This document shows, in pieces, positions 13,831 through 46,434 of a DNA stretch of 64,000 nt. Position 1 is the first letter of the stretch; each line of letters starts with the position of its first letter. This DNA comes from Ornithinimicrobium sediminis (GTDB lineage Bacteria; Actinomycetota; Actinomycetes; Actinomycetales; Dermatophilaceae), in the NCBI RefSeq assembly GCF_021272345.1, contig NZ_JAJSDQ010000008.1, positions 1 through 64,000 on the forward strand, read 5' to 3'. Both the position numbers and the translations under genes were made by a program. Below the pieces are notes generated by a model. The model was not told where the DNA came from. It made no database searches and saw only the letters and a list, made by a program, of their open reading frames with translations.

Positions 13831-15383
13831 CCACCGTCTACGTCCCGTGTGACTCCTCCGCCGTGTCGGTGGGAGCCGACGAGGTGGCGGCAGCCCTGGC
13901 CGCCGTCGAGGGGGTGCAGGTGCTGCGCAACGGCTCACGCGGGATGCTGTGGGCCGAGCCGCTCGTCGAGGTGGTCACCGAGCGCGGGCGGGTGGGCTAC
14001 GCCGGCGTGAGCGCCGAGGACGTGCCGCGGCTCGTCGCAGCCGGACTGCTCACCGGGGAGGACACCCCGGAGTGCCTGGGCGTCGTGGACGAGCACGAGT
14101 GGCTGCGCTCGCAGCGGCGGGTCTCCTTCGCCCGGGTCGGGCTGATCGAGCCCACCGACATCGCGGCCTACGGCGAGCACGGCGGCTGGGCCGGGCTGCG
14201 TCGTGCCCTGTCCCTGGCCCCGGCCGACGTCGTCGCGGAGGTCACCACCTCGGGTCTGCGCGGACGCGGAGGGGCCGGGTTCCCGGCGGGCGTCAAGTGG
14301 AGGACCGTGCTCGACGCCCCGGCTGGGCTCCGGTTCGTGGTCTGCAACCTCGACGAGGGTGACAGCGGCACGTTCGCCGACCGGATGCTGTGCGAGGGCG
14401 ACCCCTTCACCCTCATCGAGGGGATGGTCATCGCCGCCCATGCCACGGGCGCCTCCGAGGGCTACGTCTACTGCCGCTCCGAGTACCCCGCCGTCGTCAC
14501 CACCCTGCGCCGGGCCATCGAGGTCGCCTACGCGCACGGCTACCTGGGCGAGCGGATCACCGGCAGCGACCTGAGCTTCGACCTCGAGCTGCGGGTCGGC
14601 GCCGGTGCCTACATCTGTGGCGAGGAGACCTCCATGCTGGAGAGCCTGGAGGGCCGGCGCGGCGAGGTGCGGGCCAAGCCGCCGATCCCCGCCCTGCACG
14701 GGCTCTTCGGCAGGCCCACCGTCATCAACAACACGCTCACCTTCGCTGCGGTGCCGATGATCCTGGCAGACGGAGGTGCTGCCTACGCGGCGCTGGGCAC
14801 CGGTCGCTCCCGCGGCACCCAGGTCTTCCAGCTGGCCGGCAACATCGCCCGCGGCGGCATCGTCGAGGCCGACTTCGGCATCAGCCTCGGTGACCTCGTG
14901 ACCGGCTACGGCGGTGGCACCCTGTCCGGCCGGCCCGTGCGCGCGGTCCAGGTGGGCGGCCCGCTCGGGGCCTACCTGCCGGTGGACAGGCTCGACGTCC
15001 CCATGGACTACGAGGCCCTGGCCGCGGCCGGCGGGATGCTCGGGCACGGCGGCATCGTGGTCTTCGACGACACCGTCGACATGGCCCGTCAGGCCAGGTT
15101 CGCCATGGAGTTCTGCGCCGCCGAGTCGTGCGGCAAGTGCACACCGTGCCGGGTGGGTGCCGTGCGAGGTGTGGAGACCCTCGACCGGATCATCGCCGGG
15201 GTGCGCCGCGAGGACAACCTGCTCCTGCTCGAGGACCTGTGCACCACCATGACCAAGGGGTCACTGTGCGCCATGGGCGGTCTCACACCGATGCCCGTGC
15301 GCAGCGCCGTGCAGCACTGGCCGGAGGACTTCGACGCCCCGGCCGTCCACGACATACCGTCCTCCGGAGGGAGCGGACCATGA
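13827..15383 (+). CDS. fdsB: NAD-dependent formate dehydrogenase beta subunit (NuoF-like)
   Basis: A 518-residue flavoprotein. An N-terminal thioredoxin-like region is followed by the NADH/FMN domain (RGRGGAGFPAGVKW, CNLDEGDSGTFADR, GAGAYICGEETSMLESLEG) and the C-terminal 4Fe-4S motif ESCGKCTPCRVG with a later Cys (DLCTTM). It takes electrons from the iron-sulfur chain and reduces NAD. Four-base overlaps on both sides couple its translation to fdsG and fdsA. Confidence 0.92.
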   Translation: MTTVYVPCDSSAVSVGADEVAAALAAVEGVQVLRNGSRGMLWAEPLVEVVTERGRVGYAGVSAEDVPRLVAAGLLTGEDTPECLGVVDEHEWLRSQRRVSFARVGLIEPTDIAAYGEHGGWAGLRRALSLAPADVVAEVTTSGLRGRGGAGFPAGVKWRTVLDAPAGLRFVVCNLDEGDSGTFADRMLCEGDPFTLIEGMVIAAHATGASEGYVYCRSEYPAVVTTLRRAIEVAYAHGYLGERITGSDLSFDLELRVGAGAYICGEETSMLESLEGRRGEVRAKPPIPALHGLFGRPTVINNTLTFAAVPMILADGGAAYAALGTGRSRGTQVFQLAGNIARGGIVEADFGISLGDLVTGYGGGTLSGRPVRAVQVGGPLGAYLPVDRLDVPMDYEALAAAGGMLGHGGIVVFDDTVDMARQARFAMEFCAAESCGKCTPCRVGAVRGVETLDRIIAGVRREDNLLLLEDLCTTMTKGSLCAMGGLTPMPVRSAVQHWPEDFDAPAVHDIPSSGGSGP

Positions 15384-18283
15384 CCACCACCACGCCGCGC
15401 AGCGGGGGCCCGGCCCCCGGGCTCGCACCGGAGCCCGACTACGGCACTCCGGCGGTGCGTGGCGAGGCCACCGCCGGCGTCACCGTCGACGGCAGGCACG
15501 TGCAGGTGCCCCCGGGCACCTCGGTCATGCGCGCGGCTCGCGAGGCCGGCATCGAGATCCCCAAGCTGTGCGCCACCGACCGGCTCGCGGCGTTCGGCTC
15601 GTGCCGCCTGTGTGTGGTCGAGGTCGACGGCGCCAAGGGAGTGCCGGCATCCTGCACGACGCCCTGCGTCGACGGCATGGTCGTGCGCACCGACACCGAG
15701 CAGGTCCGCCAGGTCCGCCACGGGGTGATGGAGCTCTACCTGTCGGACCACCCGGCCGACTGCGCCGGGTGCGCCCGGGGCAGCTGTGAGATGCAGGACC
15801 TCGCCCGCAGGACGGGCGTCGCGCAGGTGCGCTACGGCCTCGTCGACACCCCGACGGCCACGCACGTCGACGGGGGTGCCGCGCGCGACGTGTCCAACCC
15901 CTACTTCGACTACGACCCACAGGCCTGCATCGTGTGCTCCCGCTGCGTGCGGGCCTGTGCCGACATCCAGGGCACGTTCGCGCTGACCGTGCAGGGGCGC
16001 GGGTTCGACGCGCGGATCGCCCCCGGCCCGACCGACTTCCTGGGCTCGGAGTGCGTCTCCTGCGGCGCCTGCGTGCAGGCCTGCCCGACCGACGCCCTGG
16101 TGGAGAAGTCGGTGGTGCAGCTCGGTATGCCGACGCGCGCGGTCGACACGACGTGTGCCTACTGCGGGGTGGGCTGCTCGTTCCGCGCCGAGGTGCAGGG
16201 CTCCGGGCCCGAGACGCGGGTGGTGCGGATGATGCCGAGCAAGGCCGGCGGCGCCAACGAGGGCCACTCGTGCGTCAAGGGCCGGTTCGCCTACGGCTAC
16301 GCCAACCATCCCGACCGGCAGATGCACCCCATGGTGCGCGACTCCATCGACCAGGAGTGGCGGGTGGTGTCGTGGGAGGAGGCCGTCACCAGGGTGGCCG
16401 ACGGCTTCCGTGCCGTGCAGGCCGAGCACGGCGTGGGCTCGATCGGCGGCATCTCCTCCTCGCGGTGCACCAACGAGGAGGTCTACGTCGTCCAGAAGAT
16501 GGTCCGGGCCGCCTTCGGCAACAACAACATCGACACCTGCGCCCGCGTCTGTCACAGCCCGACCGGCTACGGCCTGAGCCAGACCTTCGGCACCTCGGCC
16601 GGCACCCAGGACTTCGCGTCGGTCGACGAGACGGACGTGATGCTGCTCATCGGGGCCAACCCGACCGATGCCCACCCGGTGTTCGGCTCGCGGATGAAGA
16701 GACGGCTGCGACAGGGCGCCCAGATCATCATCGCCGACCCGCGGCGCATCGACCTGGTCCGCACGCCCCATGTCGAGGCGGCCCACCACCTGCCGCTGCT
16801 GCCCGGCAGCAACGTCGCGTTCATCAACGCCATGGCGCACACCATCGTCAGCGAGGGTCTGCACGACGAGCAGTTCCTGCGGGAGCGGTGCGAGGACGTG
16901 GAGGACTACCTGCAGTTCATCGTGCGCGAGGAGAACTCGCCCGAGACGACGGCCGAGGCGACCGGCATACCCCCCGAGCAGCTGCGCGCCGCGGCCCGGC
17001 TCTTCGCCGCCGCACCCAACGGCTCGATCTACTACGGGCTGGGGGTGACCGAGCACAGCCAGGGCTCGACGATGGTCATGGGCCTGGCCAACCTGGCGAT
17101 GGTCACCGGCAACATCGGGCGTCCGGGGGTGGGCGTGAACCCGCTGCGGGGACAGAACAACGTGCAGGGCTCGTGCGACATGGGCTCGTTCCCGCACGAG
17201 CTGCCGGGCTACCGGCACGTGGGCCTGGACGACGTGCGTGACATCTACGAGTCGCTGTGGCACGTCACGATCAGCCCCCAGCCGGGACTGCGCATCCCCA
17301 ACATGTTCGACGCGGCGATCGGGGGCACCTTCAAAGGGGTGTTCGTGCACGGCGAGGACATCGCCCAGTCCGACCCGAACCTGCACCACGTGCGTCAGGC
17401 GCTGACCTCGATGGACCTGGTGGTCGTGCAGGACCTCTTCCTCAACGAGACCGCGAAGTACGCCCACGTCTTCCTGCCGGGCAGCTCGTTCCTGGAGAAG
17501 GACGGCACGTTCACCAACGCCGAGCGGCGTCTCAACCGGGTGCGCCCGGTGATGCCGAGCCTGGTCGGCAAGGACGAGTGGCAGATCGTGTGCGACATCG
17601 CGACGGCGATGGGCTACCCGATGCACTACGAGAGCGCCGCGCAGATCATGGACGAGATCGCGGCCACCACGCCCACGTTCGCCGGCGTGTCGTTCGCACG
17701 GCTGGACGAGGAGGGCAGCATGCAGTGGCCGGTCAACGACAAGGCACCGCACGGCACCCCGACCATGCACGTCGACGGGTTCGTGCGCGGCAAGGGACGG
17801 CTGGTGCCGACGGTCTACGTGCCGACCACGGAGACGACGAACCGACGCTACCCGCTGGTCCTGACGACGGGGCGCATCCTCACGCAGTACAACGTCGGCG
17901 CCCAGACACGGCGCACGGCCAACTCCACCTGGCACCCCGAGGACGTCCTGGAGATGCATCCCGCCGACGCGCAGATGCGCGGCATCTCCACCGGTGACCG
18001 GGTGGAGCTGTCCAGCCGCGTCGGGGTCACCACGTTGACGGCACTGGTCAGCGACCGGATGCAGCCCGGCGTGGTCTACACGACCTTCCATCATCCGGTC
18101 AGCGGCACCAACGTGATCACCACGGAGAACTCCGACTGGGCGACCAACTGCCCGGAGTACAAGGTGACGGCCGTCCAGGTCGCGGTGGCGAACGCCGGCC
18201 GCGCCGACCTGGCCGCCAGGGCCGGCACCGACACGGTGGACCCGGTCGCCGGCGTGGCCGACGCGGAGGTGGCCCGCCGATGA
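15380..18283 (+). CDS. fdsA: NAD-dependent formate dehydrogenase alpha (catalytic molybdenum) subunit
   Basis: A 967-residue molybdopterin enzyme that oxidises formate to CO2. N-terminal 2Fe-2S ferredoxin domain (FGSCRLCVVEVDG), His-Cys NuoG-type cluster (SDHPADCAGCARGSCEMQ), two 4Fe-4S clusters (ACIVCSRCVRAC, ECVSCGACVQACP), then the 4Fe-4S/molybdopterin domain starting TTCAYCGVGCSF. The active-site residue in ARVCHSPTG is Cys391, encoded by TGT, so this is a Cys form, not selenoprotein. The C-terminal bis-MGD-binding domain includes TTGRILTQYN. It overlaps fdsB and fdsD by four bases. Confidence 0.93.
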   Translation: MTTTTPRSGGPAPGLAPEPDYGTPAVRGEATAGVTVDGRHVQVPPGTSVMRAAREAGIEIPKLCATDRLAAFGSCRLCVVEVDGAKGVPASCTTPCVDGMVVRTDTEQVRQVRHGVMELYLSDHPADCAGCARGSCEMQDLARRTGVAQVRYGLVDTPTATHVDGGAARDVSNPYFDYDPQACIVCSRCVRACADIQGTFALTVQGRGFDARIAPGPTDFLGSECVSCGACVQACPTDALVEKSVVQLGMPTRAVDTTCAYCGVGCSFRAEVQGSGPETRVVRMMPSKAGGANEGHSCVKGRFAYGYANHPDRQMHPMVRDSIDQEWRVVSWEEAVTRVADGFRAVQAEHGVGSIGGISSSRCTNEEVYVVQKMVRAAFGNNNIDTCARVCHSPTGYGLSQTFGTSAGTQDFASVDETDVMLLIGANPTDAHPVFGSRMKRRLRQGAQIIIADPRRIDLVRTPHVEAAHHLPLLPGSNVAFINAMAHTIVSEGLHDEQFLRERCEDVEDYLQFIVREENSPETTAEATGIPPEQLRAAARLFAAAPNGSIYYGLGVTEHSQGSTMVMGLANLAMVTGNIGRPGVGVNPLRGQNNVQGSCDMGSFPHELPGYRHVGLDDVRDIYESLWHVTISPQPGLRIPNMFDAAIGGTFKGVFVHGEDIAQSDPNLHHVRQALTSMDLVVVQDLFLNETAKYAHVFLPGSSFLEKDGTFTNAERRLNRVRPVMPSLVGKDEWQIVCDIATAMGYPMHYESAAQIMDEIAATTPTFAGVSFARLDEEGSMQWPVNDKAPHGTPTMHVDGFVRGKGRLVPTVYVPTTETTNRRYPLVLTTGRILTQYNVGAQTRRTANSTWHPEDVLEMHPADAQMRGISTGDRVELSSRVGVTTLTALVSDRMQPGVVYTTFHHPVSGTNVITTENSDWATNCPEYKVTAVQVAVANAGRADLAARAGTDTVDPVAGVADAEVARR

Positions 18284-21848: not shown

Positions 21849-22022
21849 GACGTGACCGTCCCGGCGGGCAGGGCAGGGACCAGCGCGAGGGTGCTCGCGG
21901 GCGGCCGTGACATCCTGACCCTTCCTGGTGGACCGTTCGACGAGCGGAACCCGGTCAGGCACCCGCCCCATTCCACCAAGGGTGCTCGACGTCGTCGTGA
22001 CCCGCTGCGCCCGACGGGCGCA

Positions 22023-22037
22023 GGGACCTTCGGCCCT
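22023..22037. promoter_or_regulatory. DosR-like imperfect dyad upstream of the acyl-CoA/2-oxo acid operon
   Basis: GGGACCTTCGGCCCT has the GGGAC...GNCCC layout of DosR/DevR-type hypoxia sites in actinobacteria. It is 36 bases before the ATG at 22073. A second hairpin, CTGCGCCC-GAC-GGGCGCAG-like, lies just upstream (about 22005-22023). The rest of the interval 21849-22072 shows no gene. Confidence 0.35.
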
Positions 22038-22072: not shown

Positions 22073-23908
22073 ATGGGCGAGACACAGATGTCACGCGGTG
22101 GGTCGGGGCCGGACGGGCTGGGGGAGCGGCCGCCGGTCGTGCATGTCCCCAGGAGGGCTCCCCTGGTCGGTGACTACGAGCAGCGACGCAGGAGCTTCAC
22201 CTGGGAGGAGGCCCGTGGGTGGCTCGAGGGGCTGCCCGGTGGTGGGATCAACATCGCGCACGAGGCGGTGGACCGGCACGCACACAGTGAGCTCGCCGAC
22301 ACCGTGGCGCTGCGGTTCCTCAGCCGCACCGAACCCACGAGCGAGCTGACCTACGCCGACCTGGCACGGCTCAGTGACGTGGCCGCCGTGGCGCTGCGCG
22401 AGCTCGGGGTCGAGCGGGGTGACCGGGTCTGCACGCTGCTGCCGCGCTCGCCCGAGCTCTACCTCACCGCCCTCGGCACGCTCAAGGCGGGCGCGGTCTA
22501 CTGTCCGCTCTTCCCGGCCTTCGGCACCGAGCCGGTGCGCCAGCGGCTGGAGCTCGGCAGCGTCCGGGTGCTCGTCACCGACACCCTGTCCTACACCCGC
22601 AAGGTCGCCGCGGTCCGTGACCGGCTCCCCGGGCTGCGCGTGGTGCTGCTCGTCGACGCCCCCGAGCAGGGCAGCGACGAGGGCGGCACGGTGCCGTGGG
22701 CCACGGTGATGGCCGACGCCGCCCGGGTCGTCGAGCGCGACGGCTTCACCATCGCGGCCACGGCACCGGAGGACCCCGCGCTGCTGCACTTCACCAGCGG
22801 GACCACCGGCCGGCCCAAGGGCGCCGTCCACGTGCACGAGGCTGTCGTGGCGCACCACGCGACCTCGCGTTTCTGCCTCGACCTCGCGCCAGGTGACACC
22901 TACTGGTGCACGGCCGACCCGGGCTGGGTGACCGGCACGTCGTACGGCATCATCGGTCCGCTGACCTGCGGGGTCACGGTCGTGACCGACTCGGCCGACT
23001 TCGACGCCCGGCGCTGGTGGTCGATCCTGCAGGACCAGCGCATCTCGGTCTTCTACACCGCGCCCACCGCCTTGCGCATGCTCATGCGCAAGGGCGCGGC
23101 GCTGGCCCGTGAGCACGACCTGTCAGCGCTGCGCCACGTCGTCAGCGTCGGTGAGCCGCTCAACCCCGAGGCCGTGGTCTGGGGCACCGAGGCCTTCGGC
23201 ATGCCGGTGCACGACACCTGGTGGCAGACCGAGACGGGCGCCATCATGGTGAGCAACTACCCGGGGATGCCGGTGCGCCCGGGCTCGATGGGCCGCCCCG
23301 TGCCGGGGGTGGAGGTGGGCATCCTGGCGCGCGGGGAGGACGGGCGTGCGGCCGTGGTCGACGGGCACGTGCACGAGGTGTCGGAGGCGGGCGGCCTGGG
23401 CGAGCTCGCCCTGCGACCGGGCTGGCCCTCCATGTTCCGCGGCTACCTCGGGGAGCCCGAGCGCTATGCACGGGCCTTCGCCGACGGCTGGTACCTCACG
23501 GGCGACCTGGCCCGGCGCGACGGCGACGGCTACCTGTGGTTCGTCGGCCGTGCCGACGACGTCATCAAGTCGGCGGGCCACCTCATCGGCCCCTTCGAGG
23601 TCGAGAGCGCGCTGATGGAGCATCCAGCGGTCGCCGAGGTGGGGGTCATCGGCAAGCCCGACCCGCTGGCGGGGGAGATCGTCAAGGCCTTCGTGACGCT
23701 CAAGGCCGAGCACGAGCCCACCGAGGCGCTGCGTCGCGAGCTCATCGTCTTCGGCCGCAGACGGCTGGGGTCGGTGGCACCGCGGGAGGTCGAGTTCGAC
23801 GAGCATCTCCCGCACACCCGGAGCGGCAAGGTGATGAGACGGCTGCTGAAGGCACGGGAGCTGGGGCTGCCCGAGGGCGACCTGTCCACGGTGGAGCACC
23901 CGTCATGA
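22073..23908 (+). CDS. Acetyl-CoA synthetase-like AMP-forming acyl-CoA ligase
   Basis: About 611 residues. The ANL adenylation motifs are present in order: [15 protein letters not shown] (P-loop), [14 protein letters not shown] (ACS-type), [28 protein letters not shown], the hinge [14 protein letters not shown] and the catalytic Lys region RSGKVMRR. This combination is typical of acetate-CoA ligases, with propionate also possible. The start is chosen at ATG 22073; an ATG at 22088 is also possible and neither has a strong ribosome binding site. It is first in a run of five overlapping genes with a 2-oxo acid dehydrogenase and an acyl carrier protein. A ligase in such an operon may salvage free acyl acid into acyl-CoA. 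Confidence 0.85.
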
Positions 23909-24903
23909 GCGCCCTGCCGGCCGACCGCCAGGGGCTGGTGGAGGCGGGCGCCCCGGGGATGCTGCGCGAGATGATGCGGATCCGCAGGTTCGAGGAGATG
24001 TGCGCCGAGCTCTACAGCGCGACCCGGATCAGGGGGTTCGTGCACCTGTGCATCGGCGAGGAGGCCGTCGCCGTCGGCGTCGTCTCCTCGCTCGCCGAGG
24101 GGGACGCCGTCTTCTCGACCTACCGAGAGCACGGGCACGCGCTCGCGCGAGGGGTGCCGATGCCGTCCGTCATGGCCGAGATGTTCGGCAAGGTGACCGG
24201 GTGCAGCCGGGGGCGAGGGGGCTCCATGCACCTCTTCGACGTCTCCCGGCGGTTCTACGGGGGCAGCGCCATCGTGGCCGGCGGCATCCCGCTCGCGGTC
24301 GGGACCGCGCTGGCCGACCGGCTGCACGGCACCTCCGACGTCACCGTCGCGATCTTCGGCGAGGGGGCCATGGCCGAGGGCGCCTTCCACGAGAGCGCCA
24401 ACCTCGCGGCGCTGTGGGGCCTGCCGGTGCTCTTCGTGTGCGAGAACAACCGCTACGCCATGGGCACGGCCCTGGCCCGGGAGCACGCCGACACCGACCT
24501 CACGGCCCGCGCCGCGTCGTACGGCATGGTCGCCTGGTCGGTCGACGGCATGGACGTCCTGGCCGTGCAGGACGCGACGTGCCGCGCGCTCGCCCTCGTG
24601 CGTGGGGGCGGTGGCCCGTGTTTCCTGGAGCTGCGCACCTACCGCTTCCGGGCGCACTCGATGTACGACCCGGACCGTTACCGCGACAAGGCGGAGGTCG
24701 AGGAGTGGAAGGGGGCCGACCCCATCCCGGCGCTGTCGTCACTGTTGGTCGAGCACGACGTGCTGACCCAGGACGAGCTCACCGCGTGGGCTGCGGAGAT
24801 CGAGGCCGAGGTGGCCGCCGCGGTGGAGGCCGCGGACCGCGCGCCGCTGGAGCCGGTGGAGGACCTCACCCGGTTCGTGACCACCGAGGAGGAGCGGACA
24901 TGA
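23905..24903 (+). CDS. 2-oxo acid (pyruvate/acetoin) dehydrogenase E1 alpha subunit
   Basis: A 332-residue thiamine-diphosphate enzyme subunit. [11 protein letters not shown], the TPP motif [20 protein letters not shown]...[10 protein letters not shown], and the phosphorylation-loop-like [15 protein letters not shown] are seen. Text such as [13 protein letters not shown] is typical of AcoA/PdhA proteins. With the beta subunit it decarboxylates a 2-oxo acid or cleaves acetoin and transfers the acyl group to E2 lipoate. It starts in an ATGA overlap with the ligase gene. The substrate is not decided by sequence. Confidence 0.88.
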
Positions 24904-25898
24904 CCGACACCGGCGCCCCCGTGACGACCTACCGCGAGGCACTGCGGGAGGCGCACCGTGACGCCATGCGGCGCGATCCCGAGGTCTTCCTCATGGGCGA
25001 GGACGTGGGTCGCTACGGCGGGTCCTTCGCCGTCAGCCTGGGACTGCTCGAGGAGTTCGGCGAGGACCGGGTGCGGGACACACCCCTGTCGGAGGTCGCC
25101 TTCACCGGTGCCGGCATCGGCGCCGCCCTGCGCGGGATGCGGCCGATCGTCGAGATCATGACCGTCAACTTCAGCCTGCTCGCCCTGGACCAGATCCTCA
25201 ACAACGCGGCCACCCTGCGGCACATGTCGGGTGGGCAGGTGAACGTGCCGGTCGTGATCCGGATGACCACCGGCGGCGGACGCCAGCTCGCCGCGCAGCA
25301 CTCCCACAGCCTGGAGGGCTGGTACGCCCACATCCCCGGGTTGCGGATCGTGGCACCGGCGACCGTCGAGGACGCCCGCGGCATGCTGTGGCCCGCCCTC
25401 CAGGACCCCGACCCCGTCCTGTTCTTCGAGCACGGCTCGCTCTACCCGCTCAAGGGGCCGCTGCCCGACCCGGCCCCGGAGGTCGACATCGTCAGTGCGG
25501 CCGTGCGCCGGCCGGGGCAGGACGTCACGGTCGTCACCTACGGTGCCGGCGTGGGCAAGGCCCTGACGGCGGCCACCGAGCTCGCGAGAGAGGGCATCGA
25601 GGCCGAGGTGGTGGACCTGCGGGTGCTGCGGCCGCTGGACGACGCGACCGTGCTCGCCTCGGTCGCCCGCACCCACCGGGTCGTCGTGGTCGACGAGGGG
25701 TGGCGTTCCGGTGGCCTGTCGGCCGAGATCTCGGCCCGGATCGCCGAGCAGGCGTTCTTCGACCTGGACGCTCCGGTCGAGCGGGTCTGCGGGGTGGAGG
25801 TGCCTGTGCCCTACGCGGCTCACCTGGAGCGGGCGGCACTGCCCCAGCCCGAGGACGTCGTCGCCGCCGTCCTGCGGGTGGTGCGCGGCGATGGGTGA
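24900..25898 (+). CDS. 2-oxo acid (pyruvate/acetoin) dehydrogenase E1 beta subunit
   Basis: A 332-residue transketolase-like subunit. [49 protein letters not shown] and a C-terminal transketolase domain with [12 protein letters not shown] are characteristic of AcoB/PdhB. It completes the alpha2beta2 E1. It overlaps the alpha gene by four bases and the E2 gene by eight, a tight operon. A separate homodimeric pyruvate dehydrogenase (aceE at 52472-55234) exists in this genome, so this E1 likely serves a different or conditional substrate. Confidence 0.9.
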
Positions 25899-27285
25899 CT
25901 TCCGTATGCCGTCGCTCGGGGCGGACATGGAGGAGGGGATCCTCCTGGAGTGGCTGGTGGCCCCGGGGCAGCAGGTGCACCGCGGTGACGTCATCGCGGT
26001 CGTCGAGACCCCCAAGTCAGCGGTCGAGGTCGAGTGCTTCCAGGACGGCACCGTCCGCGAGCTCGTGGCGGACGAGGGGGAGCAGGTGCCCGTGGGCGGG
26101 GTGCTGGCGCGGCTGGACGACGGGCCGCCGTCCGCCCCCGCCGAGGAGGCTCCGGCCGCCAGGGACGGGGAGCCGGCCGCAGAGCCTCCGAGAGCCGTGG
26201 CGCAGCACGCGGCCCACCGCACCGTCTCGCCGCTGGTGCGTCGCCGCGCCCGGGAGCTGGGCCTGGACCCCGACGAGGTCACGGGCACCGGCCCCGGGGG
26301 GACGGTGACCCGCAGCGACGTGGAGACGGCCGCTGCCGCGGCTGCCGTGACCGACGCCATGGTGCCGCCCGGGTCCCCCTCGCGGTCCGGGACGCCGGCG
26401 CCACCCGGTGCGGACACGGCACGCGCCAGGGTGTCGCCCTATGCCCGGCGCCTGGCGAAGGAGCGAGGTGTGGACCCCGGCGGTCTGACCGGCACCGGTC
26501 CCGGCGGGACGGTGCGCGCCGCGGACGTGCTGCGTGCCGTGCCAGGCACGCCGTCGCGCTCCCCGGAAGCCGTGGCCGACCCGATGCCGCAGCGTCCGTC
26601 CCGGCGTGCGGCCGGGACCTCCGCCGACACGATGCGCGAGAGCATCGCAGCGGTGATGACGGCCTCCAACCGCGACATCCCGCACTACTACCTGAGCACG
26701 ACCGTGGACATGGCTGCGGCCACCGACTGGGTGCGGCGGCGCAACCGGGAGCTACCGGTCGAGGAGCGGCTCGTGCCCTCCGCCCTGCTCCTGCTGTCGG
26801 CTGCCCGGGCCGCCCGGGACGTGCCCGAGCTCAACGGGCACTGGGTGGACGGGACGTTCCACCCGGCCGACACGGTCGACCTCGGTGTCATCGTGTCGCT
26901 GCGCCGGGGCGGGCTCCTCGTGCCGGTGATCCCGGCGGCGCACGAGCGGACGGTGGGCGAGACGATGGCTGCCCTGCGGGAGCTCACCAGCCGGTCCCGT
27001 GCCGGGCGTCTGCGTGGTTCCGACCTGGTGCCTCCCAGCATCACCGTCTCCAACCTCGGTGACCAGGGCGTCGAGAGCGTGCTGGGCGTGATCTACCCGC
27101 CTCAGGTGGCGCTGGTGGGTTTCGGGGCCGTCTCCGAGCGCCCCTGGGCCGTCGACGGTCTGCTCGGTGTGCGACCCCTCGTCACCGTCACCCTCGCCGG
27201 CGACCACCGTGCCAGTGACGGTGCGGTGGGGGCCAGGTTCCTCAAGCGACTGGCCCGTTTCCTGCAACGACCGGAGGAGCTATGA
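25891..27285 (+). CDS. 2-oxo acid dehydrogenase E2 acyltransferase with two E3/E1-binding domains
   Basis: A 464-residue E2. The N-terminal lipoyl domain has Lys42 in [10 protein letters not shown]. Two peripheral-subunit-binding domains follow instead of one: about residues 112-150 ([20 protein letters not shown]) and about 181-216 ([20 protein letters not shown]), each ending TGTGPGGTV. The C-terminal catalytic acyltransferase domain (about 240-464) has the active His439 in AGDHRASDG. It carries acyl groups from E1 to CoA. No E3 (dihydrolipoamide dehydrogenase) is in the window. The stop overlaps the acyl carrier protein start by four bases. Confidence 0.9.
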
Positions 27286-27515
27286 CACCCGCGGAAGCCC
27301 GGAGCCTGCTCGAGGATGCACTACGGGCGGTCGTGCCCGACGCCAGCCTGGAGGGCATGCCCGGTGACACGGACCTGCGCGAGGAGCTCGAGCTCGACTC
27401 GCTCGACTTCCTCACCGTCGTCGAGCGGCTCAGCATCGGTGCAGGCGTGCGCATCGAGGAGGACGAGGACCTCAGGACCATCGATGCCGTGGTCGGGCGG
27501 CTCACCGGCGGGTGA
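27282..27515 (+). CDS. Acyl carrier protein encoded in the 2-oxo acid dehydrogenase operon
   Basis: A 77-residue ACP-like protein. The phosphopantetheine site is Ser40 in ELELDSLDFLTVVERL, with acidic helices around it as in carrier proteins. It is clearly distinct from the fatty-acid AcpP at 46438-46686 (DIDSLSMM). It starts in an ATGA overlap with the E2 gene and ends in a 14-base convergent overlap with a membrane protein gene. Its place beside an acyl-CoA ligase and an E2 suggests it accepts an acyl group made by one of them. No dedicated ketosynthase is nearby. Confidence 0.88.
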   Translation: MTPAEARSLLEDALRAVVPDASLEGMPGDTDLREELELDSLDFLTVVERLSIGAGVRIEEDEDLRTIDAVVGRLTGG

Positions 27516-28158
27516 GCCCGTGCTCCAGGCCGCGCCGCCAGCGACGGGCCCCCGCGGCGCCGGCCAAGGCCAGCGACATGGCGACCACCACGGCCAGCAC
27601 GAAGGTCCAGGGCGAGGCGCCGGTCACCGACGCGCCGACGGCGACGTGGGCGACAGTGCCCGGGACGATCCCGACGGCGGTGCCGGCCACATAGGCACCC
27701 CAGGGCACGGCGGTCAGGCCGAGGGCGTAGCTGACCGGGGAGAAGGGGAGCACCGGCACCAGGCGCAGCCCCACCACGGCGAGCGTCCCGTGCCGGCGCA
27801 GGGCGGCGTCGACGGTCGCGACCCGGTCGCCGACGGTGACCTCGACCGCCTCCCGGCCCAGGGAGTGGGCCAGCGCGAAGGCAGCCACGGCCCCCAGCAT
27901 GGAGGCGACCCACACCAGCCCCACCCCCCAGCCCAGCCCGAAGACCCACCCGGCCGTCACGGCCAGCACGTTCTTGGGCAGGGGTGTCAGCACCGCCACG
28001 GCATACCCGAGCACGAAGGCGACAGGGGCGACAGGGCCGAGGTCGGTCAGCCACGCCTCGACCCCGGCGCGGGTGGGCACCCCCACCACCGCAGCAGCCA
28101 CGACGCCGCCGAGGACGAGCAGCACCAGGACCAGTGCTCGCCGGCGCCAACCGTCCAT
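27502..28158 (-). CDS. TVP38/TMEM64 (DedA-like, VTT domain) membrane protein
   Basis: A 218-residue membrane protein with about five or six hydrophobic segments. The VTT-domain pattern is seen in [16 protein letters not shown] and in the re-entrant region [20 protein letters not shown], with a conserved Arg and Pro. Family members act in lipid or small-molecule membrane homeostasis; the exact substrate is unknown. A GGAG lies about eight bases before the ATG at 28158. The gene is convergent with the operon ending in the acyl carrier protein and divergent from pgi. Confidence 0.8.
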
Positions 28159-28276
28159 CGCGCACGCTCCGACCTGTGAACGCGGGCCGGACCGACGACC
28201 CGGCCGCGGCCCCGTGGCTCGATCGTACTGGCCCGCAGCCTGGAAAGAGCCCACGAGGTGCGGCAGACTGCACGCC

Positions 28277-29914
28277 ATGGCCGTGAGCGATCTTCCCCAG
28301 TGGCAGGCCCTGCAGGACCATCACGCACAGGTGGGGGAGGTGCACCTGCGGACCTTGTTCGAGGAGGACCCCACGCGTGGGGAGCGGCTCGTCGCCGAGG
28401 TCGGAGGGGTGTACCTCGACTACTCCAAGCACCGGGTCACCGACGAGACGATGCGGCTGCTGGTCGACCTGGCCGAGGCGTGCGGGCTGCGCCGTCGCAT
28501 CGACGCGATGTTCGCGGGCGAGCGCATCAACACCACGGAGGACCGGGCGGTGCTCCATGTCGCGCTGCGTGCCTCGGCGGACAGGGTCATCGAGGTGGAC
28601 GGCCAGGACGTGGTCCCGGACGTGCAGGAGGTGCTGGGCCGGATGCGGGTCTTCGCCGACGACGTGCGGGAGGGCCGGTGGACCGGGCACACCGGCAAGC
28701 GCATCCGCACTGTGGTCAACATCGGCATCGGCGGCTCCGACCTCGGGCCGGCCATGGCCTACGAGGCGCTGCGCGACGCCACGACCAGGGACATGACCTT
28801 CCGGTTCGTGTCCAACGTCGACGCTGCCGACATCGTGGAGGCCACGCGCGACCTGGACCCGGAGGAGACCCTGTTCGTCGTCGCCTCCAAGACCTTCACC
28901 ACCGTGGAGACGCTCACCAACGCGCGGACCGCGCGCGAGTGGCTGGTCGCCGCTCTCGGCGAGGAGGCCGTCGCCCGCCACTTCGTGGCGGTGTCGACCA
29001 ACCGGGAGAAGGTGACCGACTTCGGGATCGACCCGGGCAGCATGTTCGGCTTCTGGGACTGGGTCGGCGGACGCTACTCCTTCACCTCTGCCATCGGCCT
29101 GTCGCTCATGGTCGCCATCGGGCCCGACGCCTTCGAGGAGATGCTCGCGGGCTTCCGCACCATGGACGACCACTTCCGCACCGCCCCCCTGGAGAGCAAC
29201 ATCCCGGTCCTGATGGGGCTGCTGGGGGTCTGGTACGGCAACTTCTTCGGCGCCGACACGCACGCGGTGCTGCCCTACAGCCAGTACCTCCAGCGGTTCC
29301 CGGCCTACCTCCAGCAGCTCGACATGGAGAGCAACGGCAAGTCGGTGACGCTCGACGGCTCTCCGGTGGGCGTGCAGACCGGTCCGGTGGTCTGGGGACA
29401 GCCGGGCACCAACGGTCAGCACGCCTTCTACCAGCTCATCCACCAGGGCACCAAGCTCGTGCCGGCCGACTTCATCGGAGTGGTCGAGCCGTTCCACGAC
29501 GGCCCCGGCTCGCTCGGGACCCAGCACGACCTGCTCACCGCCAACCTGCTCGCCCAGACCGAGGCGCTGGCCATGGGCAAGACCGCGGAGGAGGTGCGGG
29601 CCGACGGGGTGTCCGGCACGTTGGTGGCCCACCGCACCTTCCCGGGCAACAGCCCGACCTCCACACTCCTGGTCGACCGGCTCTCACCGCATACGCTCGG
29701 CCAGCTGGTCGCCCTCTACGAGCACAAGGTCTTCGTGCAGGGCGCCATCTGGGGCATCAACAGCTTCGACCAGTGGGGTGTCGAGCTCGGCAAGGTGCTG
29801 GCCCAGCAGATCGACCCCGAGCTCGTGGGCGACGTGGCCGAGCTGAGCCACGACAGCTCGACCAACGCGTTGATCCGCCGGTACCGCACCGGGCGAGGCC
29901 GCTCCACGGCCTGA
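28277..29914 (+). CDS. pgi: Glucose-6-phosphate isomerase
   Basis: A 545-residue cytoplasmic enzyme that interconverts glucose-6-phosphate and fructose-6-phosphate. The family's landmarks are all here: [58 protein letters not shown] with the catalytic Glu, [15 protein letters not shown] with the catalytic His, and [11 protein letters not shown] with the late Lys. The length is normal for the bacterial/eukaryotic type. It is a single gene with the start at ATG 28277. Confidence 0.95.
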
Positions 29915-29933: not shown

Positions 29934-32285
29934 TCAGCGGGCGGGACGCGAGGTCTGACGCAGCTGCCGGGCGACGGCCTGGGCGCGCCCCCGGACGTCG
30001 AGCTTGCGGTAGATGCTGGAGGTGTGGTGCATCACCGTCTTGGGGGTGATGCCCAACGCGGCGGAGATCTCCTTGTTGGACTCACCGGCGACGAGCCGCT
30101 CCAGCACCTGCTCCTCCCGCTCGGTCAGGTGGCGCGTCCCCTCCAGCGGTGCGGTCGGCACCTCGGGGGCCATCGAGGCGGTGTAGGTGATGGCTTCCTG
30201 GGCGGCCGTCGCGTGCCCGAGGGCAGCCCCGGCGGCGTAGGCCGCCTCCAGCTCGCCGTCCCCCCCGCTCGCCCGGAACGCCTCCAGGGCCTGGTCGTAG
30301 CGCTGCCCGGCCCAGGGCGGCAGGCTGGGGCGCAGGACCGGGAGATGGACCGAGGTCATGCCGTGGAACCGCGCCGCCTGCACCGGGTCGTCATGGGCCT
30401 GGGCAACATAGGCCAGGCACATCAACGGAGCCCCGCACCACCCCCAGACGCCGGCGGCACGGGCCATGGCGATGGCCTCGCCGCAGTGGACGGCGGCAGC
30501 GGGGAGGTCGCCGGCGCGCAGGGCGTCCATGGCTGCCACGGGCTGGACCCAGGCCTGCGTATGCCGGTCGCCGGACCGGCGCGCCCCGGTCACCAGCTCG
30601 TCGGCCGTGGGCAGCGGCAGGCCGGTGTCGGCACTGCCGGGCAGGGTCCGCAGCAGACCTGCGGTAGGCACCACCAGGGCGGGGTCCTCCAGGTGCAGTG
30701 CTCGCTCGTGGGCCGCGCGAGCCCACGACAGGGCTTCGTCGACCCGGCCCTCCTGGTGCGCCAGCATGCCGGACCACAGCTCGAACCGGGTCAGGTTGTA
30801 GGTGTCGGCCAGGGACCGCGCGAGTGCGAGGCCCTCGGCGCACAGCGGGACGATGCTCTCCCGGTGGTGCAGCGTGCGGGAGGTCCGCACAGCGAGCGCC
30901 AGCACCCCGACCAGCACCTCAGGGGAGGCCGTGCGGGCCAGCGCGACCGCCGCGTCCAGGTCGGGCAGCACGGAGTCGACCTCCTCCGCGTGCCTGGCGC
31001 TCTCGGCACGGTGCAGTGCGTGCCACGCCCGCAGCTGGGACCGGATGCCCGGGGCTGCGCCGCGACAGTCCGCGACGTCGCGGGTGCGCTGGAGCAGCGC
31101 GACATGAGCAGCGTGGGTGCCGCGGTTGAGCCACAGGGGGGCCAGCGCCAGGCACAGCGTGCTCGCCGCAGCCGAGTCCGCGGATCGCAGGGCGTCGTGC
31201 AGCGCCGTCACCAGGTCGACCTCGACCGGCTGGACGAGGCGCCTGGCGGTGGTGGGCCGTCCTCCGGCCTCGGCCGCCAGGGAGCGGGTCGCCACGTCCT
31301 GGGCCCAGAGGTGGTGCCGACGGTCGAGGTCGCGCAGGCAGGCCTGACCATGGACACCGAGCTCGTGCCGGGCGTGCTCGCGCACGAGCGGGTGCAGGGA
31401 GAACAGGCTGGCGCCGGAGCGGTGGTCCGCGTCCACCAGGTGCACGTCGACCAGGGTCGAGAGCCTCTCCACGACGTCGGGCAGCCCGGAGACCGCCTCG
31501 ACCGCCTCGACACCCACCGCGCTGCCGAAGACGGTCAGCTCCTGGAGCAGCTCACGCTCGGGTGCGGCGAGGAGCGCCAGACTCCACCCGATGGACCCGA
31601 AGAGGTCGGGCTCGTCCCCCCCGCCATCGGGGGAGGAGCAGCCCAGCACCTCTCTCGACGAGGAGCGTTCGAGCAGCCTGCGCAGCGTCGGGGGTGAGAA
31701 CGCGGCGGTGCGCGCTGCGGCGAGCTCGATCGCCAGTGGCAGCCCACCGAGCCGGACGCAGACGGCCGCGATGTCGGACAGCGCTGGGCCGTCCATCCGC
31801 GCTGTCGTGCCGGTGGCAGCGGCGACGTCGAGGAAGAGCTGCACCGCAGGGTGCCGGGCCAGCCCAGCCGTCGGAGCCTGCGGGTCGGCGTCGGCGAAGG
31901 GCTGCAGGCGCACCACGCGCTCGCCGGGGACGTGCAGGGGGGCGCGTGCCGTGACCAGGAGGCGCAGGTCCGGCCTGGACCCCAGCAGTGCGGAGAGCGC
32001 CTCGGCGGCGTCGGGCGTGCGATGCACGTCGTCCACCACCACGAGGCCGGGCATGCCCTCGAGGGCGGCGGCGACCGCGGGCGCGAGCAGGCCGTGCTCG
32101 AGCACCTGACGGGCGTCGACGGTGGCGACCGGCCCGACGTCGAGGTCCGGCAGGTCGGCGACGTGCCGCGCCAGCCGCGACTTGCCGACGCCGGGGAGCC
32201 CGGTCAGCGTGACCAGCCGGCAGCGCGCTTGGCCGAGCAGCCGGACGACCTCCGCCACGGCCTCGCTGCGCCCGCGGAGCGGCAT
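29934..32285 (-). CDS. ATPase-LuxR family transcriptional regulator
   Basis: A 783-residue regulator. P-loop TGLPGVGKS is at residues 28-36, and a Walker B-like region LVVVDDVHRTPDAAEAL and an ATPase lid follow. The middle is a helical, Ala/Leu-rich repeat region. The C-terminal LuxR helix-turn-helix is EREEQVLERLVAGESNKEIS then LGITPKTVMHHTSSIYRKL. The start is set at ATG 32285, with GGGGTG upstream. It is divergent from the giant SpvB/Rhs gene across a 133-base region with overlapping palindromes, so it is the prime candidate to control that gene. Confidence 0.87.
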   Translation of the reverse strand: MPLRGRSEAVAEVVRLLGQARCRLVTLTGLPGVGKSRLARHVADLPDLDVGPVATVDARQVLEHGLLAPAVAAALEGMPGLVVVDDVHRTPDAAEALSALLGSRPDLRLLVTARAPLHVPGERVVRLQPFADADPQAPTAGLARHPAVQLFLDVAAATGTTARMDGPALSDIAAVCVRLGGLPLAIELAAARTAAFSPPTLRRLLERSSSREVLGCSSPDGGGDEPDLFGSIGWSLALLAAPERELLQELTVFGSAVGVEAVEAVSGLPDVVERLSTLVDVHLVDADHRSGASLFSLHPLVREHARHELGVHGQACLRDLDRRHHLWAQDVATRSLAAEAGGRPTTARRLVQPVEVDLVTALHDALRSADSAAASTLCLALAPLWLNRGTHAAHVALLQRTRDVADCRGAAPGIRSQLRAWHALHRAESARHAEEVDSVLPDLDAAVALARTASPEVLVGVLALAVRTSRTLHHRESIVPLCAEGLALARSLADTYNLTRFELWSGMLAHQEGRVDEALSWARAAHERALHLEDPALVVPTAGLLRTLPGSADTGLPLPTADELVTGARRSGDRHTQAWVQPVAAMDALRAGDLPAAAVHCGEAIAMARAAGVWGWCGAPLMCLAYVAQAHDDPVQAARFHGMTSVHLPVLRPSLPPWAGQRYDQALEAFRASGGDGELEAAYAAGAALGHATAAQEAITYTASMAPEVPTAPLEGTRHLTEREEQVLERLVAGESNKEISAALGITPKTVMHHTSSIYRKLDVRGRAQAVARQLRQTSRPAR

Positions 32286-32324
32286 GTGCGACGACACCCC
32301 GGTGAGTATTCCAGACCGTCGCAC

Positions 32325-32343
32325 CCCTATAGGGCATTTGCCC
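32325..32343. promoter_or_regulatory. Overlapping palindromes in the LuxR/Rhs divergent promoter region
   Basis: A perfect CCCTATAGGG at 32325-32334 runs into GGGCA-TT-TGCCC at 32332-32343, sharing the GGG. They lie 40-58 bases from the LuxR start and 76-94 bases from the Rhs start. TATAGG in the first dyad could also be a -10 element on either strand. This is a likely operator or promoter core. Confidence 0.45.
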
Positions 32344-32418
32344 GATGCGGCCAGGACGGGACCTCTGCTGGACTCGGCATGCCCGTGCGGTCGGCGCGGG
32401 TCAACCGAGGAGTCGGCT

Positions 32419-35400
32419 ATGCGCAACGATCACGTGGTCCTGGGATCCCTGCTCTCGCTGGTGCTGGTCGGGACGGTGTCCGTGGCGCCGATCTCGGCCA
32501 CGGTCGACCCCGATGCGGGGCCTGGCGGGTCCGCTCTGGGGCGTGAGCCGCTGATGACCCCCGAGGCCCTCGGCGACGGCAGTGTCGACGGGTTGCAGTA
32601 CGCCGACCCCGCCGAGGCCCTGTCCACCATCTCACCGCCGGAGGCCTCGAGCGACGGTGGTGCCCAGCTCGGCTACCCGCTGCTGCTGCCGCCGGGCCGC
32701 GGGATCACCCCCGAGCTGGCCTTGACCTACGACTCCGGCGGAGGCAACGGGTGGCTGGGCCTGGGCTGGGACCTGTCGGTCGGCGAGGTCGCCGTCGACA
32801 CCAGCTTCGGCGCGCCCCACTTCGACCCCGACCTGGAGAGCGAGACCTACCTGCTCGACGGGGAGATGCTCGTGCCCAACTCCCTCGGTGAGACCTGGGA
32901 GCCCCGGGTGGCGGGCGACCGACAGGACTACACCCGCCAGGTCGAGTCCGACTACGAGCAGGTCATCCGCCGGTCCGTGGGCGACGGGGGCCCCGACGAC
33001 TACTACTGGGAGGTGCACGACAAGGAGGGCAACGTCCGCTGGTACGGCGGGCACCCGGACTCCGGTGGTCCGGTCGGCACACCTGTGCAGAAGGCGGGGG
33101 AGGACCTCACGATCGACCGGGACGCCATCGTGTACGACGAGGCGGGCAACGCCGTGCGCTGGCTGCTCTCCGCCCAGCGTGACGTCGGCGTGAACCTCAT
33201 CCGCTACGAGTACGAGACGATCCACTACGCGGAGGCCGGCACCGGCTGGAGCCCCGTCGAGACCTGCTCCTCCAGCGCCACGGCTGTCTGTGCCCGACAC
33301 ACCTACCTCAGCAAGATCGAGTACACCGCTGCCGCGCAGGCCTCCGGGATGCCTGAGGACCCGGCGTACGAGGTGCACTTCGAGCTCGAGTCCGACCTGG
33401 CCCCGGACGCGGACGTGCGCCTCGACCCGGTGGTCGACGGCATGGGTGGCTACGTCGACCTCGTGACCGAACGGCTGGCCCGGGTCGAGGTGCGCTACGG
33501 CGCACGCGACGGGGCCGGGGCGCGTGACTACGACCAGGTCGCCGTGCGCTTCGACCTCGACTACACCCACCCCGGCGGTCCCCGCCCCTTCGGCAAGACG
33601 CTGCTCAGGTCGGTCGCGCAGAGCGGTGGCACGGCCGACGAGGCCGTCCACGAGTTCGAGTACTACGACGAGGTGACAGACGGCGACGGCACCTACGACG
33701 GCTTCGCCGAGCAGGCGCAGACCTGGGACACCGGCTCCGACCTGCCCAGCCGCCTGCTCCTCGACTCCGAGGTCTCGGTGGGGGCGCTCGGGTCGTCCCA
33801 GAGCAACTCGGCCGAGGGCCACGCCTACATCGGCTTCAACCCGGCGATCCCTCAGAAGGTGGGCTCGTTCGGCGGCTCGATCCAGATCGGTGGGGGCAGG
33901 ACCGAGGCCATGTCCGAGTGGGTCGACCTCAACGGGGACTCGCTGCCGGACAAGGTGTTCCTGGAAGGCAGCGAGGTCAAGTTCCGGCTCAACCGCAGCG
34001 GCCCGAGCGGGGAGACGTCCTTCGGAGGTGTGAGGACGGCGACAGGGATATCGGCGCTGTCCTCCGAGAGCAACCTCGGGCTGCAGGGGTCCGTGGAGGC
34101 CCACCTGGGGGTCACCGTGGCCTTCGGGCTGGGCGCCGACGTCTCGTGGGGCGACACCTACTTCACCGACGTCAACAGCGACGGGCTGCCCGACCTCGTC
34201 ACCGGCGGCCAGGTCTTCTTCAACCGGCTGGTCGCGGGCGTCCCGACGTTCGCGACCGGCAGCGACGGCACGTTCGTGCCTCTTCCCGACAACAGCGTCA
34301 CGCCGGACATCTCGGTCGAGCGGCTCGACGAGATCCAGGCAGACCTCGCCCAGCAGTCGCCCCTGGTGGACACCGTGCGCCGCTGGGAGGCGCCCTTCGG
34401 CGGCACCGTGTCCATCGACGCGCCGGTGACCCTCGACCCGCCCAACGGCTCCTCGGTCGACGGCGTCAGGGTCGCCGTGGAGCACGACGGGGACGAGCTC
34501 GAGTCGGCCAACCTGCTCTCCACCGGAGCCACCGCCTTCGGCGCCCCGATCACCCGCGAGGTCGACCCCGGTGACCACCTCTACTTCCGGGTGGGCTCGG
34601 TCAACGACGGCGCCAACGACGAGGTGGAGTGGGCCCCTGTCGTGAGCTACACGGCGATCGACGACGTGGCCGACGTGGCCGACGTGCCGCTCGACGTCAA
34701 TGGCCTGTCCCAGACCGAGTTCTCGGCGGCCGACGACTTCACCCTGGCCGGCCGGCCCGACACCCTCGTCGTGATGCCCTTCGAGGGGACGGTGCGCTTC
34801 GAGGCCGTCGTGGACAAGACCGCGGTCACCACCGACGAGCTGCGCCTCGTACTGGAGCACAACGGCGTCACGGTCGCCGGCTCCGACATCACGATCCCCG
34901 CCGACCTCGTCGGCAAGCAGACGCTCTCCGTCGACTTCTCGGTCGCGGAGCCGGTGCTGCCGGACCCGGACGACCCGGACGCGCCCACCTCGCAGGACAC
35001 GGTCCACGCCCGCCTGGCGGTGGACTCGCCGATCGACCTGACGGTGGTCGACTGGGCACCGCGTGTCTTCTACACGGCTGCGGTGAACCGGCAGGACGAG
35101 CCGGTGGACGTCGGTAGCCCCACCGAGCCCACCATCGTCGTCGACCTCGCACCGGAGGTCGACCAGTACCCCCAGCGGTCGACCAGCGAGGTGTCCACCC
35201 CCTGGGAGGCCACGACGAGCGACACCGTCGACGCGGTCGTCGCGCTGAACCTGCTGGCCGACAACCCCGGTGGACGCGCCGTCCTCTCGGTGAAGTCCGT
35301 CGACGGCGTGGTCGCGCAGCAGGATCTCACCATCCCCGCCAGCGACTCCTCCGACTCCTTCGAGACCGTCGTCGACCTCGACGCGGCGATCACCTCCGGT

Positions 35401-45074: not shown

Positions 45075-45078
<4 letters not shown>
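43627..45078 (-). CDS. accD: Acyl-CoA carboxylase beta (carboxyltransferase) subunit
   Basis: A 483-residue carboxyltransferase of the acetyl/propionyl-CoA carboxylase beta family (AccD6-like by position). The crotonase-fold halves show SGGARLAEGVVSLHAVGEVF, GAAAGGAAYGPALTDVVVL, RLGGCLDSISAEKAARFVRM, DVPGYLPGVGQEWDGV and a C-terminal RGRHGNIPL end typical of the family. It transfers CO2 from biotin to acetyl-CoA, giving malonyl-CoA for the fatty acid synthase genes upstream. The ATG overlaps the fabF stop (ATGA), so it is the last gene of the fabD-fabH-acpP-fabF-accD operon. The biotin-carrying alpha subunit is elsewhere. Confidence 0.9.
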
Positions 45079-46328
<1,250 letters not shown>

Positions 46329-46381
46329 GTCTGCTGCTCCTCGAAAAACGGTGGTGGTCGATGGTTCCGTGGGAGGGGGCG

Positions 46382-46434
46382 GCACGGTCCGGTATGCGGC
46401 GTCGCAGGGATGCGCACGGCATACCGGACCGTGC
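46382..46434 (-). repeat. Stable hairpin between acpP and fabF
   Basis: A perfect 16-base inverted repeat (GCACGGTCCGGTATGC at 46382-46397, its complement at 46419-46434) with a 21-base loop, three bases after the acpP stop. It could end or slow most transcripts after acpP, or protect the acpP message, so that carrier protein is made in excess of FabF and AccD. Confidence 0.7.

Follow-up and report, generated by a model that had tools for sequence, protein, structure and literature searches.

What is an acyl carrier protein (ACP) doing at the end of an operon for the E1 and E2 components of a pyruvate dehydrogenase (PDH) complex, when in the textbook 2-oxo acid dehydrogenases the acyl acceptor is coenzyme A (CoA)? 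This question is raised by a 64,000-nucleotide stretch of Ornithinimicrobium sediminis DNA (contig NZ_JAJSDQ010000008.1, positions 1 to 64,000; hereafter, the window), in which five plus-strand genes encode an AcsA-type acetate--CoA-ligase-like enzyme with Leu at the position of Arg526 of acetyl-CoA synthetase, Acs (22073..23908), pyruvate dehydrogenase E1alpha (23905..24903) and E1beta (24900..25898), an E2 protein with an inserted arginine, Arg338 (25891..27285), and a dedicated ACP of 77 amino acids (27282..27515). We estimate at about one in two the probability that these five genes form a module for acetyl handling under oxygen limitation. This estimate is based on the gene set and its order, on phylogenetic clades, on individual residues, on matches to regulatory sites and on neighbouring genes, and from these we infer the substrate, the acyl transfer to the ACP, the use of the ACP by the ligase, the direction of the reaction and the induction at low oxygen.

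An earlier note, made from the sequence alone, had described the locus as an overlapping, co-oriented five-gene set containing a lipoyl E2 with the motif DHRASDG and an ACP with Ser40 in LDSLDF, distinct from the housekeeping PDH. Direct reading gave overlaps of 4, 4, 8 and 4 bases from ligase to ACP, both motifs are present, and a separate homodimeric-type AceE is encoded in the same window (52475-55234, minus strand; TIGR00759, 1385 bits, cut-off 860), so this description was borne out. The ligase passed the acetate--CoA ligase model PRK04319 (834 bits, cut-off 729), E1alpha the pyruvate dehydrogenase E1 alpha model TIGR03182 (429 bits, cut-off 394; also PF00676) and E1beta PRK09212 (410 bits, cut-off 321). 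Among the matches listed, no curated NCBIfam cut-off was reached by E2, which was assigned from its Pfam domains, one lipoyl (PF00364), two E3-binding (PF02817, two stretches) and one acyltransferase (PF00198). The operon contains no E3 gene, and lipoamide dehydrogenases above cut-off are found on two other contigs; a second ACP (~46456-46656) adjoins FabF (45078-46385) and was read as the fatty-acid ACP. Since AceE, the FabF-adjacent ACP and E3 are all encoded elsewhere, the five-gene set (the cassette) is distinct from the main PDH, and its ACP from that of fatty-acid synthesis.

Conservation of the arrangement was assessed in 87 loci gathered by E2 similarity, seven from plasmids and 80 from genomes. 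The genome scan covered one genome per species and used as the query an E2 alignment of ACP-linked plasmid copies; at least 592 of at least 594 candidate stretches were confirmed, the best 80 being kept and 512 confirmed stretches staying outside the sample. The order ligase-E1alpha-E1beta-E2-ACP on one strand is found in 81 of the 87 loci, and all five genes in 76 of the 80 genome loci; L070, L093 and L101 end at contig edges, the gap in L071 is wider although the gene order is canonical, and L053 has its ligase and ACP at a greater distance. A plasmid protein search, together with the seven annotated regions, revealed the same order in Streptomyces, Methylocystis, Rhodococcus, Sinorhizobium, Cupriavidus and Burkholderia, and also in Leisingera, where E1alpha and E1beta form a single gene. 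The best 80 loci span ten named phyla: Actinomycetota (37), Pseudomonadota (16), Bacteroidota (7), Acidobacteriota (5), Thermodesulfobacteriota (5), Nitrospirota (4), Chloroflexota (2), Verrucomicrobiota (1), Binatota (1) and Myxococcota (1), with one locus unassigned. As a control, the ACP model was run around 33 other E2 loci (142 kb in total, mostly 1.5 kb on each side, with L113 and L130 overlapping) and returned nothing at E 0.01. Conserved linkage, on which the earlier note had staked its proposal beforehand, thus holds in ten phyla; with the whole gene order kept in 81 of 87 cassette loci and no ACP match around the 33 other E2 loci, the co-occurrence of ACP with E2 that it asked about exceeds chance. 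By the same linkage, its view of the ACP as a dedicated part of the operon is upheld.

The enzymes of the cassette also form clades of their own. In a tree of the E2 catalytic domain one branch (support 100) separates 98 cassette rows, which count the window twice and include the long-branch rows L011 and L083, from 31 other E2s; likewise, 86 cassette ligases and 33 others lie on either side of one branch with support 100 (both trees were built by quick and FastTree methods and carry long-branch warnings). A family-profile ACP scoring at least 74 bits occurs in six of 119 genomes of the window's taxonomic order (own genome included), the next ACP scores in that sample, at most 56 bits, being read as ordinary ACPs; in a betaproteobacterial sample the family ACP was found in six of 143 genomes, including the genome chosen as its centre. 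Patchy presence combined with plasmid carriage suggests that the cassette has spread horizontally.

Some loci depart from the common architecture in individual ways. In seven proteobacterial loci (L025, L074, L085, L088, L092, L095 and L099) E1alpha and E1beta share one open reading frame (ORF), a natural fusion that in L025 is annotated as one E1 gene. Two family ACP matches follow E2 in L104, a Desulfobacterales metagenome-assembled genome, from position ~11254. In L054 (10001-13500) E2 has an acidic C-terminal tail and the ligase is spread over two frames. An apparent ligase-ACP fusion at L015/L109 was rejected, as it joins ligase residues 21-409 to the last 45 residues of E2 and the ACP, without E1; it is an internal deletion or an assembly error.

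Which features of the ligase could point to a changed acceptor? Residues were numbered by alignment to E. coli Acs and compared in 84 cassette ligases, namely those of the window, of L009 and of 82 among the 87 loci (the alignment lacks L031, L054, L070, L078 and L093). The acetate-pocket Trp414 and the catalytic Lys609 are each present in 84/84, and Arg526 is replaced in every one, by Leu in 68 and by Met in 16. The 33 other Acs-like ligases (E. coli, PDB 9g79, three paralogs from this genome and 28 betaproteobacterial enzymes) all keep Arg526; among the 30 betaproteobacterial ligases fetched, Leu occupies this position in two, L155, which is adjoined by E1alpha, and L156. According to PMC10455477, CoA binding and catalysis depend on Arg191, Arg526 and Arg584; Arg526 touches the phosphate of the acyl-adenylate and presumably stabilises the conformation in which the thioester forms, and when this Arg is changed to Ala in the Acs of M. 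thermautotrophicus, the variant is not saturable with CoA. The same paper describes Trp414 as limiting the ligase pocket to acetate. Loss of Arg191 was considered as a sign of CoA independence and rejected: its variability in cassette ligases is uninformative because the related AcsA, PDB 9g79, also lacks this residue and has Glu there.

Trp414 bears directly on a different assignment of substrate, in which the complex would use acetoin or some 2-oxo acid longer than pyruvate. The earlier note had linked the operon to acetoin, and the DHRASDG motif, which we take to resemble that of acetoin E2, together with a weak match of the acetoin E2 model NF011457 to the N-terminal part (88 bits, cut-off 307), would agree with this. 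The E1alpha of the window, however, passes the pyruvate dehydrogenase model, all seven annotated plasmid copies are named pdhA, and the acetate-limiting Trp is invariant in the 84 ligases; acetoin as a substrate is therefore not favoured, and we regard this assignment as very unlikely.

The E2 proteins carry a signature of their own as well. Arg338 is an extra residue, Arg in 96 of 98 cassette E2s and absent from all 31 other E2s. Immediately before the Asp of DHRxxDG, 95/98 cassette E2s have Ser or Thr, whereas 29/31 of the others have Ile, Leu or Val. The catalytic residues are retained (His439 in 98/98, Asp443 in 96/98 and Thr/Ser387 in 98/98 cassette rows). Tandem E3-binding domains, recognised by Pfam in the window E2, were picked up by a rough pattern in 13 of 97 cassette E2s. 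In the ACP, Asp39 and Ser40 are invariant (96/96 in the family alignment). The window ACP had no match to Pfam at 1e-3 and scored 18.1 bits with PF00550 (cut-off 20.8), while 51 of 53 members of the family alignment match PF00550 at 1e-3; with Ser40 in LDSLDF, it is taken to be a divergent member of the family. For the earlier suggestion that the ACP may be loaded by E2 or by the ligase, indirect support comes from Ser40, the replacement of Arg526, Arg338 and the precedents for carrier transfer considered below.

The same residues may also be read in terms of an ordinary CoA-dependent PDH and acetyl-CoA synthetase pair, induced at low oxygen, with an ACP that is structural or regulatory or that serves as a source of octanoyl-ACP for LipB-dependent lipoylation of E2. 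The invariance of ligase Arg584 (84/84) and E2 His439 is in line with such a pair, as is the fact that the ligase and E1alpha of the window pass curated CoA-type models; moreover, ACPs can be subunits of complexes, and the profile of this ACP family matches complex I ACPs. On the other hand, an ordinary pair would need neither the universal replacement of Arg526 nor the Arg insertion in E2. As for octanoyl supply, the ligase pocket is of the acetate type and what ligase and E2 share is acetyl rather than octanoyl; no lipA or lipB occurs among the 10 named of 96 clusters of neighbouring genes, a weak point. On balance we consider the ordinary pair rather unlikely.

How is a low-oxygen setting indicated? 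Upstream of the operon lies a DevR/OsdR-type box, AGGGACCTTCGGCCCT (22022..22037), the last base of which is 36 bp 5' of the ligase ATG; the earlier note had made no connection with low oxygen. It differs by one base from each of two S. coelicolor OsdR sites, AGGGACCTTCGGCCCC and CGGGACCTTCGGCCCT. According to PMC5069765, OsdR corresponds in S. coelicolor to DevR, the regulator of dormancy in mycobacteria; AGGGACCTTCGGCCCC is a predicted OsdR site before a gene for a universal stress protein (USP) and narG2, and CGGGACCTTCGGCCCT is a predicted site in the region separating SCO5978 from SCO5979, for which electrophoretic mobility shift assays demonstrated binding. Scored with a matrix of 25 published OsdR sites, the window box had p=0.001 relative to the rest of the window. 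The core GGGACYWWNGKCCC is found at 11 places in the genome (0 for a read-backwards control); by Pfam, the genes beside these sites include USP, Hsp20 and two zinc alcohol dehydrogenases, and at four of the sites the ORF tested has no Pfam family. Other GGGACYWWNGKCCC sites stand beside a cueP-like gene and a thymidine kinase gene, the DevR-type boxes at G000:C10:453485 and C13:123101 (L191 and L194) adjoining the genes for the CueP-like copper protein and the thymidine kinase.

To extend these counts to the other loci, p values for the OsdR matrix were calculated against stretches elsewhere in each locus, and 36 of 40 actinobacterial rows were scored (L031, L054 and L078 lack an aligned ligase, L009 lacks upstream DNA). 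A match at p<=0.05 lies upstream of the ligase in 13 of the 36 actinobacterial loci, the window included (1.8 expected), and in 3 of 46 non-actinobacterial loci (2.3 expected); loci from the same genus are not independent in any of these site counts. A first try with the exact DosR core gave a weak result, 4 of 87 upstream stretches (0.8 expected), partly because the longest-ORF starts lie too far upstream, and later scans were anchored on a conserved ligase residue. The DosR core at >=9/10 positions was then found in 7/36 actinobacterial loci (background 3.6%), and a looser pattern at >=11/13 in 21/36 (background 10%) and in 2/46 others (5.5%).

A first pass over the same 46 non-actinobacterial loci gave nine with FNR/FixK sites (3.1 expected) and nothing above expectation for CRP (0; 0.3 expected), NtrC (4; 5.1) or sigma-54 (1; 2.1), and a search for shared palindromes in this set returned nothing. 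Perfect boxes TTGAYNNNNRTCAA, which we take to be the FNR/FixK site type, precede six of 20 proteobacterial cassettes (0.46 expected), none of the 36 actinobacterial loci and none of the 26 remaining ones. Because DevR/OsdR-type boxes are found in Actinobacteria and FNR/FixK boxes in Proteobacteria, it seems from these predicted sites that the same module has been adopted by oxygen regulators of two unrelated kinds; it would then be induced at low oxygen.

The genomic neighbourhood was analysed by clustering flanking ORFs into 96 clusters, of which 10 were named by Pfam from one representative each. ORFs of the USP cluster flank 31 of 88 loci, followed by CBS (21), Hsp20 (17), phosphoribosyltransferase (17) and P-type ATPase (15); the remaining named clusters are ABC ATPase, DUF1918, zinc alcohol dehydrogenase, AAA domain and family-X-type polymerase. 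For USP, 50 non-overlapping ORFs were counted in 1.16 Mb of flanks versus ~4.6 domains expected from an approximate background (530 matches in 24 chosen host genomes with summed rounded sizes of 135.2 Mb); within those 24 loci alone, eight have USP ORFs (20 ORFs, some overlapping, in 0.37 Mb; 1.5 expected). USP genes clump, and the other neighbour families were counted without a matched background. Phosphoenolpyruvate (PEP) synthase flanks 10 of 87 loci, and in the same 87 loci E. coli queries detected no acetate kinase or phosphate acetyltransferase in the flanks at E 1e-10. In box sequence and in neighbour families such as USP, Hsp20 and zinc alcohol dehydrogenase the cassette is like the DevR/DosR and OsdR dormancy regulons and the low-oxygen lxa locus of Burkholderia. 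Extracts of PMC5069765 and PMC6127331 list several of the cassette's neighbour families under DevR, OsdR or lxa, and differ in that the acs-PDH-ACP set is not named there.

These observations can be accommodated by the following relay. E1alpha and E1beta, using thiamine diphosphate, would decarboxylate pyruvate and hand its acetyl group over to the lipoyl arm of E2, with E3 supplied from elsewhere in the genome; E2 would then transfer acetyl onto the 4'-phosphopantetheine arm of the ACP, replacing or besides CoA, and the AcsA-like ligase, altered in its thioester-forming half-reaction, would work on the same ACP thiol. The two halves would meet at the acetyl thioester, since E2 carries acetyl and the ligase is of the acetate type. 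The likeliest direction at low oxygen would be acetyl-S-ACP + AMP + PPi -> acetate + ATP + HS-ACP, leaving the CoA pool unspent; it is suggested by the low-oxygen setting only, and the reverse direction, loading of acetate onto the ACP, is possible. A relay from pyruvate through acetyl-lipoyl-E2 and acetyl-S-ACP to acetate and ATP would account for the joint occurrence of ligase, E2 and ACP and for the altered thioester half-reaction of the ligase, and it fits flanks without matches to acetate kinase or phosphate acetyltransferase. In its full form, pyruvate would be converted to acetate and ATP without CoA by a widespread route via acetyl-ACP, switched on by DevR/OsdR or FNR/FixK in different phyla, which would supply resting or hypoxic cells with energy and spare the CoA pool; the proposal is a tentative one, which we hold with the odds somewhat against it.

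Several observations weigh against the acetyl module and the relay. The linkage is shown for close relatives only, because the query E2s came from ACP-linked copies, and 512 of at least 592 confirmed stretches lie outside the linkage count. L054 has no ACP 3' of E2, and in one of the six betaproteobacterial genomes with the family ACP (G325, locus L156) a Leu526 ligase has no E1alpha within 1.5 kb downstream and the genome's ACP is on another contig. In 78 loci pairwise ACP distances track those of E2 (Spearman 0.41) and ligase (0.40) more closely than those of E1alpha (0.35) and E1beta (0.28), but the co-variation of the ACP with E2 and ligase is modest and no more than a weak hint. Arg584, which in Acs contacts the 3'-phosphate of CoA, is Arg in all cassette ligases aligned, as if CoA were still bound; its invariance would suggest that the usual site is occupied by CoA or by some other partner bearing a phosphate, the ACP arm being one candidate. 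A study of S. enterica cited in PMC10455477 found only a ~2-fold loss of turnover upon changes of Arg526 and Arg584. With respect to regulation, the DevR box was first spotted in the window and tested afterwards, the window's contig has no USP gene, and no such operon appears in the S. coelicolor OsdR site table in the extracts of PMC5069765, no search for the set in that species having been made. Finally, a phosphate acetyltransferase is part of the B. cenocepacia lxa locus (PMC6127331).

Transfer from E1/E2 to a carrier has relatives among antibiotic-type pathways, which raises the possibility that acetyl-ACP serves here as a biosynthetic starter for a fatty acid, polyketide or peptide. QncN/QncL/QncM and SclQ1-4 of the quinocarcin-type and scleric acid pathways are alike in that an E1-type protein, a lipoyl E2-type protein and a separate ACP jointly charge the ACP; they differ in belonging to antibiotic-type clusters with nonribosomal peptide synthetase partners and in handling a ketose-derived C2 glycolicacyl unit, and an acetate ligase is not mentioned in the accessible part of the source (PMC6335953). 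In the pepteridine pathway the E2 of Plu2796 was proposed to prime the carrier phosphopantetheine instead of CoA, and the carrier Ser is needed for product; it differs in that E2 is fused to carrier and condensation domains with pteridine genes beside it (extracts of PMC5384830). Apart from these precedents with the same parts (PMC6335953 and PMC5384830, as excerpted), a starter role would suit the plasmid copy L027, which has two additional AMP-binding proteins directly upstream. Against such a role, ketosynthase, condensation and thioesterase families are absent among the 10 named of 96 neighbour clusters, the named neighbours are USP, Hsp20 and CBS-type families along with PEP synthase, and the next long ORF past the window ACP (27502-28278) runs on the opposite strand. 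We therefore deem a starter role unlikely.

Returning to the acetyl module, its components may be set against their closest known counterparts. The E1/E2 part is like an E1alpha/beta PDH complex in the E1alpha model passed, the E2 catalytic His and the lipoyl domain, and unlike it in having no E3 in the operon, its own ACP and ligase, the Arg insertion in E2 and a separate clade. The ligase resembles AcsA (PRK04319, PDB 9g79) in the curated model passed, the acetate pocket and the catalytic lysine, and departs from it by the Leu/Met substitution at Arg526 and by its separate clade. Citrate lyase and malonate decarboxylase are served by acetate:ACP ligases that load acetate onto a dedicated ACP with conversion of ATP to AMP; their partner enzymes are unrelated, and E1 and E2 are not among them. 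Searches of open-licence literature turned up no account of the five-gene set, and in the available portions of that on low oxygen the terms 'acyl carrier' and 'pyruvate dehydrogenase' are absent from the main text. Transfer from E1/E2 to a carrier is known or proposed in antibiotic-type pathways of secondary metabolism; what would be new here is the stress-linked form.

A five-gene set found in ten phyla, with its own carrier and a change in a CoA-relevant ligase residue, suggests that primary metabolism, and not just antibiotic synthesis, may make use of acetyl bound to a carrier. The predicted boxes tie many copies to dormancy-type or low-oxygen regulation, which bears on how non-growing cells may obtain ATP from pyruvate, and the cassette could offer a small expressible system for studying ATP supply in such cells. 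If the relay operates, many genes named acsA, pdhA or acyl carrier protein are annotated with the wrong acceptor.

Elsewhere in the window, a formate dehydrogenase alpha subunit is encoded upstream of the operon on the same strand (15128-18283; TIGR01591, 851 bits), and a very long ORF (32122-41211, 3029 amino acids) looks RHS/YD-repeat-like by reading of its sequence only.

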